From Byssovorax sp. (GTDB lineage Bacteria; Myxococcota_A; Polyangia; Polyangiales; Polyangiaceae): a stretch of 64,000 nucleotides of DNA. The position numbers and the translations under genes were made by a program. The stretch spans positions 62,001 to 126,000 of the forward strand of contig JANYGI010000034.1 of NCBI GenBank assembly GCA_025362495.1. Direction: 5' to 3'. The notes beneath the pieces are model-generated. The model was not told the DNA's origin, made no database searches, and saw only the letters and a list, made by a program, of their open reading frames with translations. Positions 1-43,935 of the stretch are shown in pieces; position 1 is the first letter of the stretch; every line of letters begins with the position of its first letter.

Positions 1-1751
1 CCCGCAACCCGCTCCGTCGATACTCACTCTTGCTTCTCGCGGCGCTGCCCGCGTGCAGCTCGTCCGGCGAGCCCGCGACGGCCACCGGGACCGGCGGTGA
101 CAGTCCCCTTCCGCCGGACACCACCGCGGCGACCTCGACGGCAATCGCTGCATCGAGCTCGGGCTCGGGCTCCGGAGGCTCCAGCAGCGTGTCGACGGGC
201 TCCGGCGGCTCCGGCGGCTCCGGCGGCGAGGCGCCCGGCTCGTGCATCATGGCGGGTGACACCGGCCTGGCGAAGAGCACGTGGGTCCACGTCGATCCGA
301 ACGGCAAACTCGCCTACAAGGCGCTTCCCACGGGCGAGCGCATCCTCGACTTCTCGCAGTCCGGCTATCGCGGCGGCGGCGTGGCGATTCCGAGCGTGCC
401 AGTCGTCAAGACCGTCAATCCCTCGGGCGGCGACGACACCGCCGCCATCCAGGGCGCGATCGACGCTGTCGCGGCGCTGCCCGCGAGCAATGGCCTTCGC
501 GGCGCCGTGCTCCTCGGCCCTGGCAAATTCGTGGTGAAGAGCACCCTCACCATCACGACGTCGGGTGTGGTGCTCCGCGGCAGCGGCTCGGGCGCGATGG
601 GCACGGTGCTCGCGCTCTCGGGCGCGCCGCGCGCGGCGGTGAGCATCCAGGGCAAAGGCTCCTGGCAGACGGTCGGCAAGGGCGCGACGATCACCGACGC
701 GTACGTGCCCTCGGGCGCCACGTCGTTTCACGTCGACAGCGCGACTGGCCTGCAGGTCGGCGATCACGTGCTCATCGATCGTCCGGTCACCGACGCGTGG
801 ATCCACTTCATGGGCATGGACAAGCTCGTCCGCAACGGCATGCCCGAGACGTGGATCGGCGCCGGGACGATCATCCACACCGATCGGGTGATCGCGGCGA
901 TCTCCGGCGATCAGATCACCCTCGACGTGCCGCTCTCGGACTCCTACGACGCGCAGTACACGAAGCCCGGCGTCAAGATCACGCCGTATACCTTCGACGG
1001 GCGCATCGAGCAGGTCGGCCTCGAGTCGATGCGCATCGTCGCGTCGGCGGCGAGCGTGCCCATCAGCGATCCCATCTTCTCGGTCCTCGACATGAACGAC
1101 GTCATCGACGGCTGGGTGAAGGACGTCGTGGCCGACGAGTGCACCAACGGCTTCTCGATCGGCGCGACGAGCAAGCGGATCACGGTGGACGGCGCCGTGT
1201 TCAACCGGGTCACGCCCATCGACGGCTCGGCGGGATACCCGTTCTCCTACGCGATCTCCGGGACGCAGACGCTGGTGATGCGCTCGTCCACGCACGCCGA
1301 CAAGGTGTACTCGTACGCGACGATGGCCCGGGTCTCGGGGCCGAACGTGCTGCTCGACTTCAAGGGCACCGGCACCTGGACGCGGATCGAGCCCCACCAG
1401 CGCTGGGCGACAGGCCTGCTCCTCGACGGCGTCGACTCGCCCGGCGGGAGCATCAACCTCATCGACCGTGGCTATCTGGGGAGCGGGCACGGCTGGACGA
1501 TCGGCTTCGCCGTGGCATGGAACGGCGTGGCGATGGATCTGACGGTGCAGCAGCCGCCCGGAGCGCAGAACTGGGCCATCGGCGCGTCGGGCGCGCTGAA
1601 GACCCAGGCCGAGGCGGGCAAGGCCGATACGACGCCGATGCCGTCCGGGATCACCGAGTCGATCGGGAAGGCCGTGGCGCCGAGGAGCCTTTATCTCGCG
1701 CAGCTCTGCGAGCGGCTGGGCCCGCAGGCGCTGGCGAACATCGGTTACTGA
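1..1751 (+). CDS. Secreted right-handed beta-helix (pectate-lyase-like) lipoprotein, 5' end outside window
   Basis: The reading frame is already open at base 3, and the first codons give a basic stretch followed by a leucine-rich core and the lipobox-like LPAC. The gene therefore probably starts just left of the window, with TTG at 30 only the first possible start inside it. After the lipobox comes a Thr/Ser/Gly linker of about 70 residues, typical of myxobacterial surface lipoproteins. The body has the signature of pectate-lyase-superfamily beta-helices: GGDDTAAIQGAIDAV, then a phrase GPGKF, then stacked short strands such as VVLRGSGSG. These proteins bind or cleave polysaccharides at the cell surface, but I cannot identify a catalytic site or substrate. 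Convergent to the next gene. Confidence 0.8.
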   Translation, partial: RNPLRRYSLLLLAALPACSSSGEPATATGTGGDSPLPPDTTAATSTAIAASSSGSGSGGSSSVSTGSGGSGGSGGEAPGSCIMAGDTGLAKSTWVHVDPNGKLAYKALPTGERILDFSQSGYRGGGVAIPSVPVVKTVNPSGGDDTAAIQGAIDAVAALPASNGLRGAVLLGPGKFVVKSTLTITTSGVVLRGSGSGAMGTVLALSGAPRAAVSIQGKGSWQTVGKGATITDAYVPSGATSFHVDSATGLQVGDHVLIDRPVTDAWIHFMGMDKLVRNGMPETWIGAGTIIHTDRVIAAISGDQITLDVPLSDSYDAQYTKPGVKITPYTFDGRIEQVGLESMRIVASAASVPISDPIFSVLDMNDVIDGWVKDVVADECTNGFSIGATSKRITVDGAVFNRVTPIDGSAGYPFSYAISGTQTLVMRSSTHADKVYSYATMARVSGPNVLLDFKGTGTWTRIEPHQRWATGLLLDGVDSPGGSINLIDRGYLGSGHGWTIGFAVAWNGVAMDLTVQQPPGAQNWAIGASGALKTQAEAGKADTTPMPSGITESIGKAVAPRSLYLAQLCERLGPQALANIGY

Positions 1752-1906
1752 GGTCGGGTGCGGGGGAGGGGCGCTGTGCCGCCATCCGGCGGCCTTTTCG
1801 ACGGGAGCGCGGCGGACAGGGCGTCTCGCCGCGGGCCGAGGGGCGATGTCCCCCGGGCCGGATCACCCCCGGCCAGGGCGGCCGGAGGTGACGGATCAGG
1901 CCTGGA

Positions 1907-4900
1907 TCAGGCCGCGCGACGCCGGCGGAAGGTCAGGAGCGCGGCCAGCGCGCTCCCGGCCAGCCAGCCGAGGCTGCCCGTGTCGTTGCCCGGCTGCGTC
2001 GAGCACATGATGCCAGTCGTGTGACCGACGTACGGCGCGGGGCCACCCGCGCCGGTGCGGCCGCCAGCGCCGCTGGAGCTGCTGGCGCCGCCGCTCGACG
2101 AGCTCCCACCGGCTCCGCTGCTCGCGCTGCCGCTGCCCGTGCTGGCGCTGCCCGCGCTGCCACTGCTCGCGCTGGTCGTGGTGGTGTCGATGTACTTCGG
2201 ACCGCAGGTGCCCACCGCCTCGGTCGTCGAGGAGCACGCGAGATCCGCAGAGCACGTGTTGCCGAAAGCGCCGCGGCAGCCGTCGTGACAGGCCAGCTTG
2301 TCGCAGACCTTGCCGCTGTGCGGCCCGCCGCAGGTGTCGTCGACGATGCACTCGACGCAGGCGCCGATGACCGTGTCGGCCGACGTGCAGAGCTTGGCGC
2401 CCGCGCACGCATTGCCGGCTTCGCCGCGGCAACCCGAGGTGCAGGTGTGCGAAGGGACGTCGCAGACGACGCCGCTCGTCGCGCCGCCGCAGTCGCTGTC
2501 CGTCATGCAGCCGCCGCACTTGCCGAGCGCGCCGTCCGTCGACGTGCACACCAGGCTGCCCGCGCAGCCGTTCCCGCCGATGCTCCGGCACCCCGCGGTG
2601 CACGACAGCGTTGACGTGTCGCAGACGAGGCCGCTCTTGGCGTCCCCGCAGTCGCTGTCGGCGAGGCACGCGACGCACGCGCCGATCGTGGCGGTCGCCG
2701 AGGTGCAGACCAGGTTGCCCGAGCAGCCGTTACCCGACTGGGCGCGGCAGCCGACCATGCACTTCTGCGTGCTCTGGTCGCAGACGATACCGCTCTTGGC
2801 GTCACCGCAGTTGCTGTCGGTCAGGCAGCCGACGCACTGGCCGGCGGCGCTCCCCTGCGAGGTGCAGACCAGGTTGCCGGAGCAGCCGTTGCCGTCTTCG
2901 CCGCCTTCGCCGCGGCAGCCGAGGACGCAGGTCTTCGAGGCCCCGTCGCAGATGCTGCCGCTGTGCGGTCCGCCGCAGTCCGCATCGGACACGCAGCCGG
3001 CGCAGGTGCCGATCGAGGCGTCCTGCGAGGTGCAGACCAGGTTGCCGGAGCAGCCGTTGCCGGCCTTGCCGCGGCAGCCGACGACGCACGCCTGCTTGGC
3101 GGTGTCGCAGACAGCGCCGCTGCTGGCGCCGCCGCAGCTCGCGTCGCTCAGGCAGCCCACGCAGGCTCCGATCGCGCCGTCCGTCGACGTGCACACGAGC
3201 GCTCCCGAGCAGCCGTTTCCGCCGCTGGCACGGCAGCCAGACTGGCAGCTGTGCTTGGTCGTATCGCAGACGAGGCCGCTCTGGGCGCCGCCGCAGTCGC
3301 TGTCGGCGAGGCACCCGAGACAGGTGCCAGCCGCGCTGTCCTGCGAGGTGCAAACGAGGTTGCCCGAGCAGCGGTTGCCCGCGGTGCCGCGGCAGCCAAG
3401 CACGCACGCGTGGGCGGCCGGATCACAGATGATCCCGCTCTGGGCGCCGCCGCAGTCGCTGTCCGCGAGGCAGGCGACGCAGGCGCCGACGCTCGCCGTC
3501 GTCGAGGTGCAGTGGAGCCCCGCGCCGCATCCGTTGCCGCCCTGACGACAGCCGAGAACGCAGGTGTACGAAGCGCCGGGGCCCATATCACAGACCTGGC
3601 CGCTCGCCGGGCTGCCACACTGGGCGTCCGCGAGGCACGCGCAGCCGTTGTTGCGGTTGCCGTCGCAGTCCGAGTCGATCGCATCGCCGCAGATCTCGGC
3701 GGAGGGCGCGCCGGGGACGGCATTGCACGTCGCGGTGCCATCTTGCTTGCAGACGAACGTGCCAGGCGCCACGCAGGCTCCGACTCCGTTCGAGCACGCC
3801 ATGCCCACGTTGAAGCCGTTGTCGACGACCCCATCGCAGTTGTCGTCGAGGCCGTTGCAGGTCTCGGCCTGGCTGCCGACCGCGATGAAGGGAACGCAGC
3901 TCAGCGCGCCGGCCGAGCAGGTGGTCGAGCCCGCGCCGCACACGCCGCTCAGCTGCGTGGAGCAGCTCGTGCCCGCGCCGGGGTTGCCGTTGTCGACGAC
4001 GCCGTCACAGTCGTTGTCGAGCCCGTCGCAGAGCTCGGCCGAAGGGGCGCTGGGGACCGCGTTGCACGCCGACGCCGTGGTCGATGAGCACTGCATGGTG
4101 CCGGCGTGCGAGCACTGGCCGACGCCGTTCGAGCAGGCCGCGCCGATGCTGAAGCCGTTGTCGATCACGCCGTCGCAATCGTTGTCCTTGCCATCGCACG
4201 TCTCGGCCGTGGCGCAGCACGCGGGGACGGTGATCGTGATGGTCCCTGCCGAGAAGCTCGAGAGGAGATCCGTCTGGCCGGCCGGGAGATCGATGCCGGA
4301 GTAGATAGCGCGGAAGTCCTGCGCGCCCGTCGCGGCCCACCCGCAGTCGGGCGTGAAGCTGAACGAGTACACGCCGTCGCCGTCAGGGTCGGTGTCGGTG
4401 CCAATCGCGAGGCCAGCGACGAAGAACGTGACGACGCCCTTGCTGGGGCCCGTCGCCGAAGCGTTGGTGGTGGTGTCCTTGACCGTGGCCTTGAGCAGGA
4501 TGGTCTGGCCCTTGGCGACCGAGCTGCCGTTGCCGCCCACGAGCGTCACGCCAGTGGAATCACCCGAGGTGGGAGGGGGCGGATCGGTGAACGTCGTGAT
4601 CCGCGCCGAGGCGGTGAGCGTCGACACGGCCTGCGAGGTCGCGACCACCGTCATCTGGACGGGGAGCGCGGCGGGCAGGTTGGCCGGAGCGTTGACCGTG
4701 AGCGTCACCGTCGTGTGAACGCCGGCGAGGACGGGCACAGAGCTGGCGATCGACGTCGTCCAGCCGGGCATGCCGCCGACCACCGTGAGGTTGTAGGTGT
4801 CGTTGATGATGCCGTGGTTCTGGAGATCGAAATCGTAGGTGACCGTCTGCGGGGTCGCCTGAGCAGGATTGATGATCTTGGAGACCACGCCCGCGTTCTT

Positions 4901-18965: not shown

Positions 18966-19193
18966 ATGAGCACGGCGAGAAAGCTGACCGCGGAAGCACT
19001 CCAGCTCGACGACGCCGAGCGGGCGACGATGGTGCTCGAGCTGATGGATTCGCTTTCGCGCCCCGATTCGCGCGACGAGGCCGGATGGATCGCCGAGATT
19101 GAAGGGCGAGCGCACCGGGCAATCTCCGGCGAGTCCGCGGGCGTGGACTTCGACACCGCGGTCGACAGCATCTCGCGCGATCTCGGGCTGTGA
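18966..19193 (+). CDS. Addiction-module antitoxin-type protein (PF09720-like)
   Basis: ATG at 18966 encodes 75 residues with AEALQLDDAERATMVLELMDSL, the signature of the putative addiction module component family (N-terminal helix then an LxLMDSL motif). Such proteins bind DNA and neutralise a ParE/RelE-type toxin. The toxin gene starts in the GTGA overlap at 19190, so the two are one operon. Codon use and position fit a genuine type II module. Confidence 0.8.
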   Translation: MSTARKLTAEALQLDDAERATMVLELMDSLSRPDSRDEAGWIAEIEGRAHRAISGESAGVDFDTAVDSISRDLGL

Positions 19194-19507
19194 CGAAACC
19201 TCGCCTCGCGCCCGAGGCCGAGGCCGAGCTTCGAGACGCGGCGAGCTGGTACAGGGAGCGCGACGCCGAGGTCGCCCGCCGGTTCCTTCGCGAAGCCCGG
19301 ACGGTGGTTGCGGCGATCGCGCGGAAGCCTCTCCGGTTTCCGGTGCTCGTCGAGCCGGCGATGAACCCGCCGATCCGCCGGGCGCTCTTTCCCGGCTTTC
19401 CCTACGCGATCATTTTCCTGGTCACCGACGACGTGATTCACGTGCTGGCGATTGCCCACCAGCACCGCGCCCCGGGCTACTGGCTCCATCGGATCACGCC
19501 GCCTTGA
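19190..19507 (+). CDS. RelE/ParE-family toxin
   Basis: GTG at 19190 overlaps the antitoxin stop. The 105-residue protein has the ParE/RelE fold pattern: APEAEAELRDAASWYRERD near the N-terminus, FLREARTVVAAIARKP in the second helix, and FPYAIIFLVTDDVIHVLAIAH in the last strands. The family acts on gyrase (ParE) or on ribosome-bound mRNA (RelE); the sequence alone does not show which. Its stop directly abuts the convergent stop of the MerR-TPR gene at 19508. Confidence 0.8.
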   Translation: MTKPRLAPEAEAELRDAASWYRERDAEVARRFLREARTVVAAIARKPLRFPVLVEPAMNPPIRRALFPGFPYAIIFLVTDDVIHVLAIAHQHRAPGYWLHRITPP

Positions 19508-37071: not shown

Positions 37072-38388
37072 TCACGTCGAAGGATCCTCGACCCGGCCGA
37101 GGAACAGGACCGTCCCGGTGTGCCCGTCGCGGATGAGAAACAGATAGGGGCGATCGAAGCTGATCGCGGCGGGCAAGTACGCTGCGGTGGCCTTGAAGCC
37201 GGTGGCGGTGGCTGCGGCGGCCTCGGTGCCGGCCTCGTCGACGTCGATGAAGGTCCGGTGAACGACCGAGTCGAGAGCGAGCCCGTGGCGCGGGCTGATC
37301 CCCGTGAAGTCCGCGAGATCGGTGAAGGCCGTCGGCATGCCGAGGGCCGCGAGAGGTGACGCCAGCGCGATCGACGACTCGATCTTGAACACCGGTAGCG
37401 AGACCGAGACGGAGCGGCGATCGAGCCCGTCGACGATCGAGGTCAGCCGCGCGGGCGTGAGCGTCGACTCGAGCGACACCATGCCTCCCGGCGAGGGCAG
37501 GAGGAGAATCATCGAGAGATCGCCGGCGTCGTAAGGGATCTGGAGCGCCGCGTAGCCGGGGCCCTCGCCATACCCGAGGTCCTGCTTGGCCGTCATCGTG
37601 GGGACCTCGCGCGTCGTGCCGTCCGGCCGGGTGAAGGTCGCGAACCGGGTGTCGTCGGGATCGAAGGGCGTCTTCCAGGCCGCGCTGAACGAGACCGCGT
37701 TGCCGAGGACGAGTCGCGTGGCGCCGGTGATCGAGCCTGGATCGAGCAGGGAGTCGATCCACTCGCCGGTGTGCTCACTCATCCAGCCGTTGATCGTCGA
37801 CAGGGCCTGATCCGGCGTCCCGCTGAAGTCGACCGAGCGCGCCTCTGCGCCGTAGTCCCGAGCGAGGGTGTCGAGGAACGGCGCGGCGAACGGATACCCT
37901 TGCTGGTCCCAGACCGCGCTGGCGATGCCGAGGTGAAACACCCCACCGTCGGCGCCGGCGCCCGGGTTGGCCGGATGCGTCAGCGCGTGATCGATGGTGT
38001 TGAAGGCGGGATGGAGGCGACTCGGGGGGAGGCCGAGGTGGAGCGCGGCCGCCATCTCCAGCGCGGTGTAGCCGCGCGCGCCGGCCATGGTCATGGCGAG
38101 GGATTCGGACACGCTGAAGGGCGACAAGCAGAGATTACCAGGGCTCCCGGCGATCTGGCGGTAGAGGTTGAAGGCAAACGCCGTGTTGCCGTGCACCACC
38201 GTGGCGACGTCGATCGCGGGGGCGCTGGGCGACTCGACCCGCTGCTGCGCGGACGCGACGACGCAGCCCGGATCGCTGGCCCCGGCGCAATCGTCATCCA
38301 CAGAAGTGGTAGGGCCGATGCAGCCCGGGAGCGCGGCGAGAAGCGATGCGACGGTGAGCGAACGAGCGAAAGATCTGGAGAAGTACAT
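37072..38388 (-). CDS. Serpin-family lipoprotein (serine-protease inhibitor)
   Basis: A GGAGG ribosome site lies 8 bases before ATG 38388. The 438-residue product has a signal peptide ending in ALPGCI (lipobox), a short linker, then a full serpin fold: FAFNLYRQIAGSPGNLCLSPFSVSESL, VLGNAVSFSAAWKTPF, and the C-terminal strand SFDRPYLFLIRD. The reactive-centre loop is at about 384-404: DEAGTEAAAATATGF shows the conserved hinge (G at P15, then small residues). Alignment to alpha-1-antitrypsin puts P1 near Thr401 to Ala403, suggesting inhibition of elastase-like proteases. Anchored in the envelope, it may protect against self or prey proteases. Confidence 0.85.
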   Translation of the reverse strand: MYFSRSFARSLTVASLLAALPGCIGPTTSVDDDCAGASDPGCVVASAQQRVESPSAPAIDVATVVHGNTAFAFNLYRQIAGSPGNLCLSPFSVSESLAMTMAGARGYTALEMAAALHLGLPPSRLHPAFNTIDHALTHPANPGAGADGGVFHLGIASAVWDQQGYPFAAPFLDTLARDYGAEARSVDFSGTPDQALSTINGWMSEHTGEWIDSLLDPGSITGATRLVLGNAVSFSAAWKTPFDPDDTRFATFTRPDGTTREVPTMTAKQDLGYGEGPGYAALQIPYDAGDLSMILLLPSPGGMVSLESTLTPARLTSIVDGLDRRSVSVSLPVFKIESSIALASPLAALGMPTAFTDLADFTGISPRHGLALDSVVHRTFIDVDEAGTEAAAATATGFKATAAYLPAAISFDRPYLFLIRDGHTGTVLFLGRVEDPST

Positions 38389-38905: not shown

Positions 38906-41900
38906 TCAGGGCGCGTCGGCCCCGAACCAGTGCCGCCAGACGTAGGCGGCAGCGGGATCGCCGGCGTCTTTCGCGACGCGCACGCTCTGGAACAGCATCG
39001 CGCGCGTCGCGGGGTCGGAGGTGGGAGCGGCGATGGTGGCCTCGCGTCCGCCGCCTCGATCGAGGCTCGTCCCCAGAATCAAGAGGCCGAGTGAGCTGAT
39101 CCAGTGTGGCTTCTCCCCGTTCCAGTGCTTCATCACGAACCAGGAGCGCTCCACCCCGTCTTCCCCCCCGACGGACAGGCTCTCGCAGTCGGGGGAGAAG
39201 CGCATCGATCGCACCGCGGTGCTGTAGAAGGTGCCGAGGGTAGTACCGCTCGCGAGATCTTCGACGATGACCGGGACCCAGGGGGCGGTGGGCCGCGAGC
39301 CGCCCGCCCGCGAGGCCGAGACGTAGGCAAAGAGAGGGCGCGCGAGCTCGATCCGCGGCTCGCTGTCGCTGCGCGGCCGGGGCCCGAGCGCGCGTGAAAT
39401 GCAGAACGCGCCCGGGCCTTCGGCGGCCTGCGCGGAGAAGACGAGGGGCGTGGTCAACAGATCGGGACTGGTACCCTTTTGCAAGGCGATCGCGGCCGCG
39501 AGCCCGCCTTCTTGCTCGGCGAGGGGCGCCACGCGCGGCGTGCCGACGCGCGCCGAGGTGACGCCGCCGCGCGTGCGAATGTCGACCAGGCTGTCGGTGG
39601 AAGGCGCCATCGTCAGATAGACATCGCCCGATGGCGTGCGGCCCGCGCTGATGACGGGCGCCGTCGCCAGCAACGTCTGGAGGAGGGCGTGGCCGACGCT
39701 CGTCGACATGCGCAAGGGCGGGAGCACGCTGTCGTCCGCGGCGCTCTGGAGCAGCAGCGAAGGTGGTTGACCCGAGAGTTCGGTGGTCTTGTCGAAGCGG
39801 ATCTTGTAGCGACCGCCCGCCGTCGACCACGCTGCGTCGAGGTCGGCCGCGGCGCGCGCCGGGGCGGCGTCCGCCGGCAGCTGGTGATCGATTGACGCTG
39901 ATCGCGCCGAGACGATCTGGAGCTGGCCAACCTCGGAGATCCCGACGACCAGGCCAGCCTCCAGCACCGGAAGATGCGCGCGGAGATCCACCGTGCGGAC
40001 CGGGCGAAACGAGGGCCACCGCGCGGCATCGAACCAGAACGTCCGGTACTCGCGGCCCGTGCACGACGCGACGAGACCCGCGCCGGGCCCGCTCGTGGGG
40101 CGCGTGAAGCGAGGCAGCCCTGACGGCTCGAGGCCGTGCGCGCAGGCGAGGTGGTCGTGATCTTCGCTGGCGAAGAACCCCGTGTCTTGCAGGTAAATCG
40201 CGTGCTCCGTCGGGCGCACGACGACGACCGGCTCGCGGGTGAAGTCGGCGAACGACGTCGCTGATTGGTTGAACCGGCCCACGAGGACCCGCTGCCCGCC
40301 TTCGTCGACATCGCGGACACACGGCTTCGTCTGGGCGGAGAATACCGTTGCGCTCCACGCAGGCCTGTCGCTGCCGGCGGCCGTCACCTCCAGCAGATAC
40401 CGGTCGGCTGCGCCTCGCACCTCTCTCATCCTGGCAGCGTACGCGCCACCAGAAGAGGTGGTGTCCAGGCAGAAGTCGATCGGTGTCGGAGCCGCGGAGC
40501 GACCCGCCGCTGCCGCCCGCGGATCGGCGGGGCCGACGGCCACCCACTCCCGGTCGAGCCGGGCCCCGGTTCTGCCGATGTCGCCCCCGAGCAAGAGCAT
40601 GTCGTCGGCGGCTCCGATCCGGATCGCGCGGCTGCTCGCCGACCACTAGGCTCGCCGGGTCGAGTCGCCGTGGGCCATCGCCAGCATCCGTGGGCCGGAG
40701 GGCGAGCCAGCCTCCCAGATCGCGAGCTGGTCCGAGCCCTGTTCCATCGCCGAGACCCACTTGCCATCCGGGCTGAGGCGAGGAGCATAGAAGTGCTTCC
40801 CCTCTAGATCCAGAGTCTGCGCGGGTCCGAGGACGCGCCCGGAGAGCACGGCCGCGGCGTCCACGGGGATGATCCAGATGGCGCCGTCGGCGAGCTGCGC
40901 CAGGGCCTCGCGCCCATCGGCGCTGAGGTCCGTGGCGAGGATGCGGCGAACCGCGGTCGCGTGGCCCGCGAGCTCGCCGCTGGCCAGCAGGTCGGCCGAC
41001 ACGATCGGCGCGTCGACCGCCACCTGGATCGTCCGGGCGACGAGCGAATCGAGGCGCGGATCGTCCGCGGGCAAGAGCTCCACGGCGCGGCAGAGCAGCG
41101 GCAGCGCTTCGAGCGGGCTCGTGGCCTTCTCCCGCCCGCACGAGGAGCTGCTCGACGCTCGCCAGCGCCTCCGCGCGGCCCTTGAGAGCGTTGTAGACCT
41201 CGACGGTGAGCGCGGGCGCTCCAGGGCTCTTCTGGTCGGCGGCCTCGAACATCCGCGTCATGATGATCTGCAGCGTCGGCGCGACCGGCGACCCCGGGTC
41301 CGAGAGCAGGCCATTGCTGACGATCAGTGGCAGATCGGGATCCACGCTCGCGCGCCACTTGGCCTGGCTCCGCGGTGTTCGCTGGAGGCCGAGGACGATC
41401 TCCTGGATGCCGTCCTCGTCGAGGCGCTCCAGCAAGATCCGGCTGAACGAGAGGCCGCGATCCTCGAGGCGAGCCGAGATCTCGGCGAGCCACTCCTTGC
41501 GGAACGAGAGCACGAGTCGCCCGCGCGGCCGCGCGGCCGCGTCGCCGAACACCGTGGCCAGGTGCGCGTCGAGCTCGCTGAGCTCGACGTCGCCGGGATC
41601 CTGCCCCGGAGCGAGGGAGTCGGGCAGGGGACCGGTGCGCTCGTTCGATCGGGTATAGGCCTCCTCGACCTGATCGAGCACCACGATCAGCGGCTTTCCG
41701 AGCGCTTTTTCGACCTCTCGCCACAGGAGCGCCGGCGCGGTCGCTCCGGCCGAGACCGCTGTTCCGAGGGCGCCGGCGAGCGCCGTCGTGAGCGAGTGAA
41801 CGAGGCCTTGGGCCGCGTCGCGGCGGACGTAGAGCGGCTCGCGATGGAGCCGCAGGCGCGGCGTGAGGCCGGCGTCGAGCACCGAGGATTTCCCGACGCC

Positions 41901-42614
41901 GGTCTGTCCGAAGAAGAGCACGATGGGCGGGGCGTCCTCGGAGAGGAGGAATCGATAGAGCTCGTGCAGCTCGCGACCGCGCCCGAAGAAGATCTCGGCG
42001 TCAGCCTCGGTGTACCGCTCGAGGTAGCGAAAGAACCGCCCGGGCAAGGCCCGCTGCGGCAGGCCGGGGAGGCCGCGATAAGGATCCAGGAGAGGGAGTC
42101 GCTCTCCGATGGTGTCGAGGATCGAGGCGATCGGGCAGGCGTAGAGGTGGCCTTTGCTCAGCTCGTCTTGATCGGTGAGCGTCGAGCGGATGACGCCGAC
42201 GAGCGCGCCGCCCACGAAGCACGGGCCGCCCGAGAGACCGGCGATGTCGTTGTCCTTCGCCGACTCCACGAAGAGCTGGATCGCGGCGGCCTCGGCCGGC
42301 TTTCGCGGGCCCTTGGCGGTCCCGGCATAGGTGGTGTCCGCGTCGGCGATGTACCCGTGGTAGGAACGGCCAACCTTGCTGTTCTCGGCCGGGAAGCCGA
42401 AGGTGCGCGCCGCGACCTTCTCGCCGATCTCACCGCGGCCCAGCGTCCCGAGCGGGGCAGGGAGGATGTCGACGTCGTGATCGAGCCGGAGAAGGACCCA
42501 GTCGGCGTCGGGATCGAAGCACCCCTCGACGACAGTGGCCCTGGTCGCGATGCCCTTCTTGACGAACACCAGATCGACCGTGCCTGTCGGGGCGAACGCG
42601 GGTGGCTCCTGGGT
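38906..42614 (-). pseudogene. Broken trypsin-like / STAND NTPase / WD40-like protein
   Basis: Reading right to left, the frame from 42614 has a trypsin-like C-terminal half (DPDADWVLLRLD, then GLSGGPCFVGGALVGVI with the catalytic Ser). Then comes FFGRGRELHELYRFL, followed by a P-loop FFGQTGVGKSSVLDAG and a Walker B LIVVLDQVEEAY, as in STAND NTPases. At about 41131 a +1 shift (extra base in a CCC run) moves the frame. It continues with ALPLLCRAVELLPADD and WD40-like units (RLSPDGKWVSAMEQGSDQLAIW, split here by position). An amber stop at 40646-40648 interrupts it, and the frame resumes with WSASSRAIRIG and runs to 38906. The trypsin N-terminus with the catalytic His is missing. Such architectures are known from predicted conflict systems; this copy looks dead. 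Confidence 0.75.
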
Positions 42615-43935
42615 AGGTGGCGCCGCCGGGGAGCTCGATCCGCTTGGCGAGGTGGGTGTGGCCGAAGACCACGTAGCGTCGGCCGGTGGCGGCGAGGTTC
42701 TGCGCGGCGTCGAGATAGGCCTTCTCGGTCTCGACGGCGACGTTGAAGGACTGGTTGTTTCGCGCGGCTCGGAGCGCGTCGAGCAGGGCCGGCAAGCGGG
42801 CCTTGAGGCCGCGCGGATCGACCGATCCCAGGAGGCGGAGCACGTGCCCCGAGACGCCGGCGATGTCCTGTCCACGGGGAGCGTCCGCGGCCTCGTGGCT
42901 GTCGATCGGCGGCGGATCGGCCGCGTCGGCCGCCGCGAGCTTGCGGAGAAACTCCACCGCTCCGGCTTCGGTCATCGGCCCTGCAAGCAGCGCCAGGAGC
43001 TGCTCTTCGTCGCGCTGCCGCGCCGTCTTCTTGCGCGCGTGGCGCGGTCGCGCCGGGGCGTCGTCGTCGTCGCTCGCCGCCGTGTCGGCGCCGTGCGGCT
43101 CCTGGTCGCTCTGGCCCTCGCGCGCCGCGATGTCGCGCCGCAAGGACGCCTCCGCGGTGAGCCAGAGCAGATAAGGCAGCTTCCAGCGCACCCCGGGGAC
43201 GAGCGCCGCGAGGATGGGCAGCACCGCCTCGGTCTCGGGCTTGAGCAGATCCACGAACGGATAGCGGGCCTTGCTCGGGTCCATCACGTGGGCGACGAGG
43301 CGGCTGCCCGGCGGCGCGTGGTAGGGCCCGTCGTCGGTGGGCTCGCCCCGCGATTGCATCGCCCGCGCCTGGCGGAGCGCGTCGTGATCGATGCGGTTGA
43401 ATCCATCGTAGCGATTGCCATGCTCGATCAGGGCGTCGCCGACGACGTAGGCCTGGTCGTCGAGCAAGAACGTGAAGGCCGAGTGTTCGTCCGCGCCCAG
43501 ATGGCCGCGAAGCGCCGCGTGGACGGCAGGATAGGAGAGCTCGACGTCGTGGTTGCCGAGGAGGACCGTCAGCGCGTGGCCGGCCGCGAGGAGCGCCCCC
43601 AGCGCGTCGAAGAAGGGTTGATCACGAAGGACGATGTCGCGGAGCTTGCGGACGGCCTCTCCGGGGGAGTGCACCGTCGGCGACCAGGTGGTCGGCGCAG
43701 CCCCGCCGCCGTGCGGAGGTAGATCGGGCTCGGCGAGAAAGTCGATGAAGTCGCCGTTGATCACCAGCTCGAGGCCGACGTCGGGGGAGCGCACCTCGGC
43801 GACGATGTGCTCGACGAACCTGCGGAGCTCGTCCACGCGCGTGCACATGCGGAAGCCGCGATCGTCGCCGCCCGCGCCGTAGCGGCCGCCGACGTGGAGA
43901 TCCGAGATGACGTAGACCGATCGGGATCCGCGCAT
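42430..43935 (-). CDS. Calcineurin-like metallophosphoesterase with a truncated C-terminus
   Basis: ATG at 43935 (RGSRSVYVISDLH) was chosen because upstream codons look non-coding. The 501-residue frame has the complete metal-binding set: DLH (residues 12-14), GDFID (61-65), GNHD (127-130) and GHTH (425-428). After GGATY near position 42613 the expected family pattern (NTGTW-like strand) is missing. The rest, to the stop at 42430, is an out-of-frame reading of the neighbouring trypsin-like gene. An acidic insert around DTAASDDDDAPARPRHARKK lies in the middle. The enzyme should hydrolyse phosphoesters with two metal ions; substrate unknown. Divergent from proS. Confidence 0.75.
   Translation of the reverse strand: MRGSRSVYVISDLHVGGRYGAGGDDRGFRMCTRVDELRRFVEHIVAEVRSPDVGLELVINGDFIDFLAEPDLPPHGGGAAPTTWSPTVHSPGEAVRKLRDIVLRDQPFFDALGALLAAGHALTVLLGNHDVELSYPAVHAALRGHLGADEHSAFTFLLDDQAYVVGDALIEHGNRYDGFNRIDHDALRQARAMQSRGEPTDDGPYHAPPGSRLVAHVMDPSKARYPFVDLLKPETEAVLPILAALVPGVRWKLPYLLWLTAEASLRRDIAAREGQSDQEPHGADTAASDDDDAPARPRHARKKTARQRDEEQLLALLAGPMTEAGAVEFLRKLAAADAADPPPIDSHEAADAPRGQDIAGVSGHVLRLLGSVDPRGLKARLPALLDALRAARNNQSFNVAVETEKAYLDAAQNLAATGRRYVVFGHTHLAKRIELPGGATYPGATRVRPDRHGRSGVRQEGHRDQGHCRRGVLRSRRRLGPSPARSRRRHPPCPARDAGPR

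Follow-up and report, generated by a model that had tools for sequence, protein, structure and literature searches.

A conserved metallophosphoesterase-protease cassette, broken in one Byssovorax copy, and a possible protease-gated mechanism

Does a metallophosphoesterase gene that adjoins a decayed trypsin/STAND/WD40 protein belong to a distinct cassette, and was that cassette lost recently? The question is raised by a locus in a 64,000-nucleotide stretch of Byssovorax sp. (assembly GCA_025362495.1, contig JANYGI010000034.1, positions 62,001 to 126,000), here called the window, with positions counted from its first letter. The source genome is a draft of 10.84 Mb in 240 contigs, and the window lies on contig 193. 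On the minus strand, positions 43935-38909 encode in order a calcineurin-like metallophosphoesterase (MPE), a trypsin remnant, an nSTAND1 NTPase and a WD40-like C-terminus, in coding pieces that are spread across three frames and contain one further stop. We find that this locus is real, that it is broken and that it belongs to a conserved cassette; the two annotated neighbours are two genes joined up by a deletion.

The intact form of the cassette is seen in a Myxococcaceae metagenome-assembled genome (L045), where a protein search of genome contigs finds an MPE of 483 residues followed, after a gap of 21 bp, by a single 1582-residue protein with an N-terminal Trypsin_2 domain (1.2e-11), an nSTAND1 domain (4.6e-28) and a WD40-like C-terminal end. 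Searches of the phylum and the class recover the same gene order in L121, L122, L123, L130, L131 and L172, of which L121 (genome G397) comes from the same family as the window organism and L122 has a strong C-terminal propeller. The first-pass annotation had described an MPE beside a trypsin/STAND/WD40 layout in the window, and this description is borne out by Pfam (PF00149 and PF20703) and by the alignments to L045. The two genes are adjacent in all of these intact loci, which hold both trypsin and nSTAND1 domains and, in the best cases, a propeller too. The proteins of L045 and L122 combine an N-terminal effector with C-terminal sensor repeats, as nSTAND1 conflict proteins do. We regard the pairing of MPE and protease, together with the domain content, as strongly supported and close to certain. 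We further note that a Lit-type peptidase U49 gene adjoins the intact cassette in L045 (13078-14016; PADLOC Lit 8.8e-78) and that a large CHAT protein is encoded near it (2-3847); these surroundings look like a defence island.

In the window, all parts of the cassette lie on the minus strand. The MPE (42619-43935) matches Pfam PF00149 Metallophos at 3.7e-5, above the curated cut-off, and shares 45% identity with the L045 MPE up to position 42619. Alignments of the subfamily show that it keeps all five metal motifs (SDLH, GD, GNHD, HGN and GHTH), and from the same alignments and the insert lengths a hypervariable insert is placed between the DLLKPE and GHTH motifs (42688-43203). The MPE breaks off just before the conserved YxNxGTW motif, with its C-terminal ~70 residues from this motif onward lost and the open reading frame continuing out of frame to 42430. 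The trypsin remnant (42060-42617, by alignment to the Trypsin_2 domain of L045) resumes past the catalytic His; it retains the Asp (42503-42501) and the Ser (42233-42231, in GLSGGPC) and is matched by the PADLOC models LmuA (9.5e-6) and Avs1b (5.5e-4). Its Pfam Trypsin_2 score is only 0.08 because the first part of the domain is missing. The nSTAND1 domain (~41160-42032; PF20703, 2.2e-22) carries a Walker A motif, GQTGVGKS, at 41909-41886. Pfam support for the WD40-like region (41122-38909) is weak (PD40, 0.065), but at its C-terminus the region can be aligned to the end of the propeller in the intact L045 protein. A first piece (40646-41122) is found by tblastn with the L045 propeller (2.3e-13) and ends in an in-frame TAG at 40648-40646; a second piece in the same frame (38909-40645) matches L045 residues 1426-1582 (6.7e-18).

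Comparison with the intact loci L045 and L121 defines the lesions. The first deletion has its junction at 42600-42630 (about 42615), lacks ~360-380 bp relative to both loci and removes the C-terminus of the MPE, the intergenic gap and the trypsin N-terminus with the catalytic His. The second, at the STAND/propeller junction (41120-41150), lacks ~620 bp and changes the frame: a span of 682 bp in L045 (9326 to 10008) corresponds to ~58 bp in the window, and the end of the STAND domain is lost together with a linker/transmembrane segment. The TAG then interrupts an otherwise continuous WD40-like frame. The complete reading frame of an nSTAND1 protein is therefore absent, with two deletions, a frame change and a stop, and the suspicion that the copy is inactive is supported. 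Could these lesions be assembly errors, with the genome itself holding an intact cassette? The draft state of the assembly and the coding-like GC content at third codon positions (GC3) of every fragment (0.86-0.90) would fit such an explanation. However, losses of ~360 and ~620 bp and a stop fall together in one locus while the other genes of the window appear whole in a GC3 frame scan, and the missing parts of both deletions are not found elsewhere in the assembly; we consider assembly error unlikely. The coding-type GC3 in all pieces makes the loss look recent, as for a young pseudogene, so the earlier suggestion of a recent loss is plausible although not proven, and on this reading the locus holds a conserved two-gene cassette that has lost its activity recently.

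The suggestion that the pairing is a distinct cassette likewise holds in that the pairing is conserved, but it underestimated the breadth of the pairing. The MPE belongs to a subfamily without a name, seen in 55 loci, with conserved SDxH, GD, GNHDxEL, HGxxDxxN, KP and GHTH-type motifs. In 42 of the 55 loci, a protease gene lies directly downstream on the same strand at a distance of -21 to +133 bp, often overlapping. These partners comprise 17 CHAT, 16 trypsin and nine C25-like caspase-fold proteases, as counted with profiles made from members of the set itself, on which the weakest partner calls depend. The catalytic residues of the partners are retained (trypsin H/D/S in 16/16, CHAT H/C in 15/15), and the C25-like label derives from two weak matches to Pfam that fall short of the curated cut-off (0.002 and 1.8e-4) and from H and C residues conserved in 13/14. 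Since MPEs of this subfamily are partnered by CHAT and C25-like proteases as well as by trypsin, the cassette is better described as an MPE plus a protease, with the trypsin-STAND-WD40 protein as one form. Intact pairs are found in Myxococcota, in Acidobacteriota (L199 and L202 with CHAT, L203 with trypsin-AAA) and in Planctomycetota (L206 and L207 with CHAT). Among ~28 distinct other, more distant MPE loci with flanks of at least 1.5 kb, which serve as a control, no protease neighbour is seen except in L111, itself a C25-type relative. A PDB profile search with the MPE alignment gave no match at 0.001, and no relative of the MPE was found on viral contigs.

Occurrence is patchy, at 29 of the 318 genomes of the class. 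The source genome also holds an intact MPE-CHAT(-TPR-S) pair (L072, contig 141, 3569-6981), and the presence of a broken copy and this intact paralogue in one genome points to turnover of such modules. Two further arrangements are seen among the loci. A three-gene form (L127, 5903-13500) places an ABC ATPase between the MPE and a trypsin-NACHT-FGE protein, and CHAT-nSTAND1 proteins adjoin MPE genes in L136 (6762-11225, with a propeller) and L133 (1-3499), linking the CHAT and STAND types.

The MPE and its partner have also diversified together. In a maximum-likelihood tree of 47 MPEs, all 13 CHAT-linked rows fall in one clade (Shimodaira-Hasegawa-like approximate likelihood ratio test, SH-aLRT, 99), the C25-linked rows cluster in another clade, and the trypsin-linked rows group together. 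Partner class changes seven times on this tree, versus 28 times in shuffles. The shared descent of a linked pair suffices for such a split by protease class; what the tree pattern indicates is that pairs stay together, and cleavage of one member by the other does not follow from it.

The region that we propose as the gating or cleavage site of the MPE, judging from its sequence, is the insert between DLLKPE and GHTH. It lies before the last metal motif, spans 100-185 residues with almost no conservation and is flanked by invariant motifs. A G[DE][IL][SAG] motif occurs at least twice in 5/8 trypsin-STAND MPEs, versus 0.04 expected by shuffling, and is repeated in none of the other partner classes. 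Many CHAT-linked MPEs carry a motif of the type G-x-L-[GS], one form of which is present in 11/13.

A precedent for protease gating comes from nucleases of the metallo-β-lactamase fold (MBL) whose genes adjoin those of trypsin fusions or caspases; Tuck et al. (2025, PMC12799240) showed these nucleases to be pro-enzymes gated by two inserts, the trypsin cutting the pro-nuclease after Ile. The same layout, here with another hydrolase fold, together with the match of the L045 trypsin to Avs1b, leads by analogy to a model in which the protease opens the MPE. The propeller would sense an infection product, the STAND domain would oligomerise with ATP and turn the trypsin on, and the trypsin would cut the variable insert; the opened MPE would then hydrolyse a phosphodiester substrate and halt the cell or the virus. 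Judged from the family, nucleic acid or a nucleotide would be the likeliest substrate, and a CHAT or C25-like protease would take the place of trypsin in the sister cassettes. The cassette is probably directed against viruses, and we put at about even the chances that infection activates the protease, which then cuts the MPE and thereby turns it on.

Several observations weigh against this gating model. Thirteen of the 55 MPEs, for the most part the more distant members, are not directly followed by a protease gene. The window MPE itself lacks the repeated G[DE][IL][SAG] motif, three of the five repeat-bearing MPEs come from one genus and therefore represent few independent lineages, and the repeat may be structural. 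LG pairs in the inserts of the CHAT class barely exceed composition (10/13, with 6.3 expected), and we rejected the LG motif as a mark of CHAT cleavage on this ground. An AlphaFold model of the L045 MPE, made from a two-row alignment with the window copy, reaches a predicted local distance difference test score (pLDDT) of 38.6 and does not give the position of the insert relative to the active site. The domains, the gene adjacency, the joint diversification, the retained catalytic residues, the insert with its motifs and the lesions are observed here, whereas cleavage and activation of the MPE by the protease, its substrate and the defence role are inferred.

Other roles for the pair can be weighed on the same observations. 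The protease could be the effector and the MPE a brake that degrades a nucleotide second messenger which would otherwise trigger it, forming a controlled switch. The MPE has its own gene in front of the protease, a position often taken by regulators, and calcineurin-type MPEs of conflict systems were predicted to cleave (cyclic) nucleotides (PMC7159879, PMC8195603). However, three unrelated protease types track the MPE clades, which agrees better with an enzyme-substrate pair, the insert varies as a cleavage region would, and no gene for a nucleotide cyclase was noticed next to the intact pairs, where no search was aimed at cyclases; we consider a brake unlikely. That the two proteins are parallel effectors, triggered together with neither acting on the other, seems to us distinctly improbable: the conflict systems described by Kaur et al. 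(PMC7159879) often combine effectors and the catalytic motifs of the MPE are complete, but the MPE phylogeny tracks protease class, a pattern that linked descent alone could yield, and the repeated insert motif is limited to one partner class; independent effectors would lead one to expect neither. We give still less weight to a housekeeping or developmental role outside defence, such as envelope or lipid phosphoester metabolism coupled to a quality-control protease. The defence role of the members is deduced and PADLOC holds no model for the MPE, but a role outside defence sits poorly with the patchy occurrence, with the STAND/NACHT, propeller, FGE and TPR-S domains present in the protease partners, which are typical of conflict systems, and with the Lit-type gene next door in L045. 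Protease gating of the MPE is the reading that we favour.

Two other genes of the window deserve mention. A serpin with an N-terminal signal-like segment is encoded ~500 bp downstream of the cassette on the same strand (37072-38388, minus strand; Pfam 6.6e-96); it was rejected as a cassette component, since no serpin is found in any fetched relative locus. A ParE-type toxin gene lies at 19190-19507 on the plus strand (Pfam 3.5e-10).

How does the MPE-protease cassette relate to known systems? The pair is not mentioned in the searched passages of PMC7159879, PMC8195603 and PMC12799240, and further literature searches, whose coverage stopped short of subscription papers, found no published description of it. 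With the nSTAND1 conflict proteins (Kaur et al., 2021, PMC8195603), an N-terminal trypsin or calcineurin domain, a C-terminal sensor and occurrence in multicellular bacteria are shared features; there the fused effector is either calcineurin or trypsin, whereas here they are two genes. The sister cassettes resemble the CHAT system Craspase (TPR-CHAT, PMC9729208) in having a CHAT protease as the activated component, but they lack the CRISPR component, and the partner is an MPE.

The closest parallel is offered by the MBL pro-nuclease-protease pairs, which occur in AVAST type 1 (Avs1), Hachiman, Lamassu and DRT with trypsin, and in Canu with caspase (PMC12799240). The trypsin pairs share with our cassette the hydrolase-protease layout and variable inserts in the hydrolase, and the best PADLOC and NCBIfam match of the L045 trypsin domain is, weakly, Avs1b (4.3e-9 and 5e-9). 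Membership in AVAST type 1 was rejected, because the upstream gene is not the MBL-fold Avs1a but a PF00149 protein with calcineurin metal motifs and no MBL match, and because the NCBIfam Avs1b model (NF041810), whose cut-off is 1500 bits, reaches 33.9 bits, in the trypsin domain only. The NTPase, an nSTAND1 with a propeller, also sets the cassette apart from these pairs. Canu is similar in that its hydrolase family pairs with caspase-type in place of trypsin-type proteases; we rejected membership since its MBL-type nuclease lies downstream of the caspase, whereas here the gene order is reversed, with an enzyme of MPE fold upstream of the CHAT or C25-like protease. We tentatively suggest, at a little under even confidence, that the calcineurin-like MPE is a second, independently evolved hydrolase fold forming protease-gated pro-enzymes, co-diversified with trypsin, CHAT and C25-like proteases in at least three phyla. 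This would be a general phosphoesterase-protease immune module that arose convergently to the MBL-protease pairs. If so, the MPE subfamily offers a search handle by which further defence loci of multicellular bacteria, as yet unexplored, could be found, and the design in which a protease activates a dormant hydrolase, demonstrated to date for a single nuclease fold, would have arisen again with another enzyme class that accepts three protease types.
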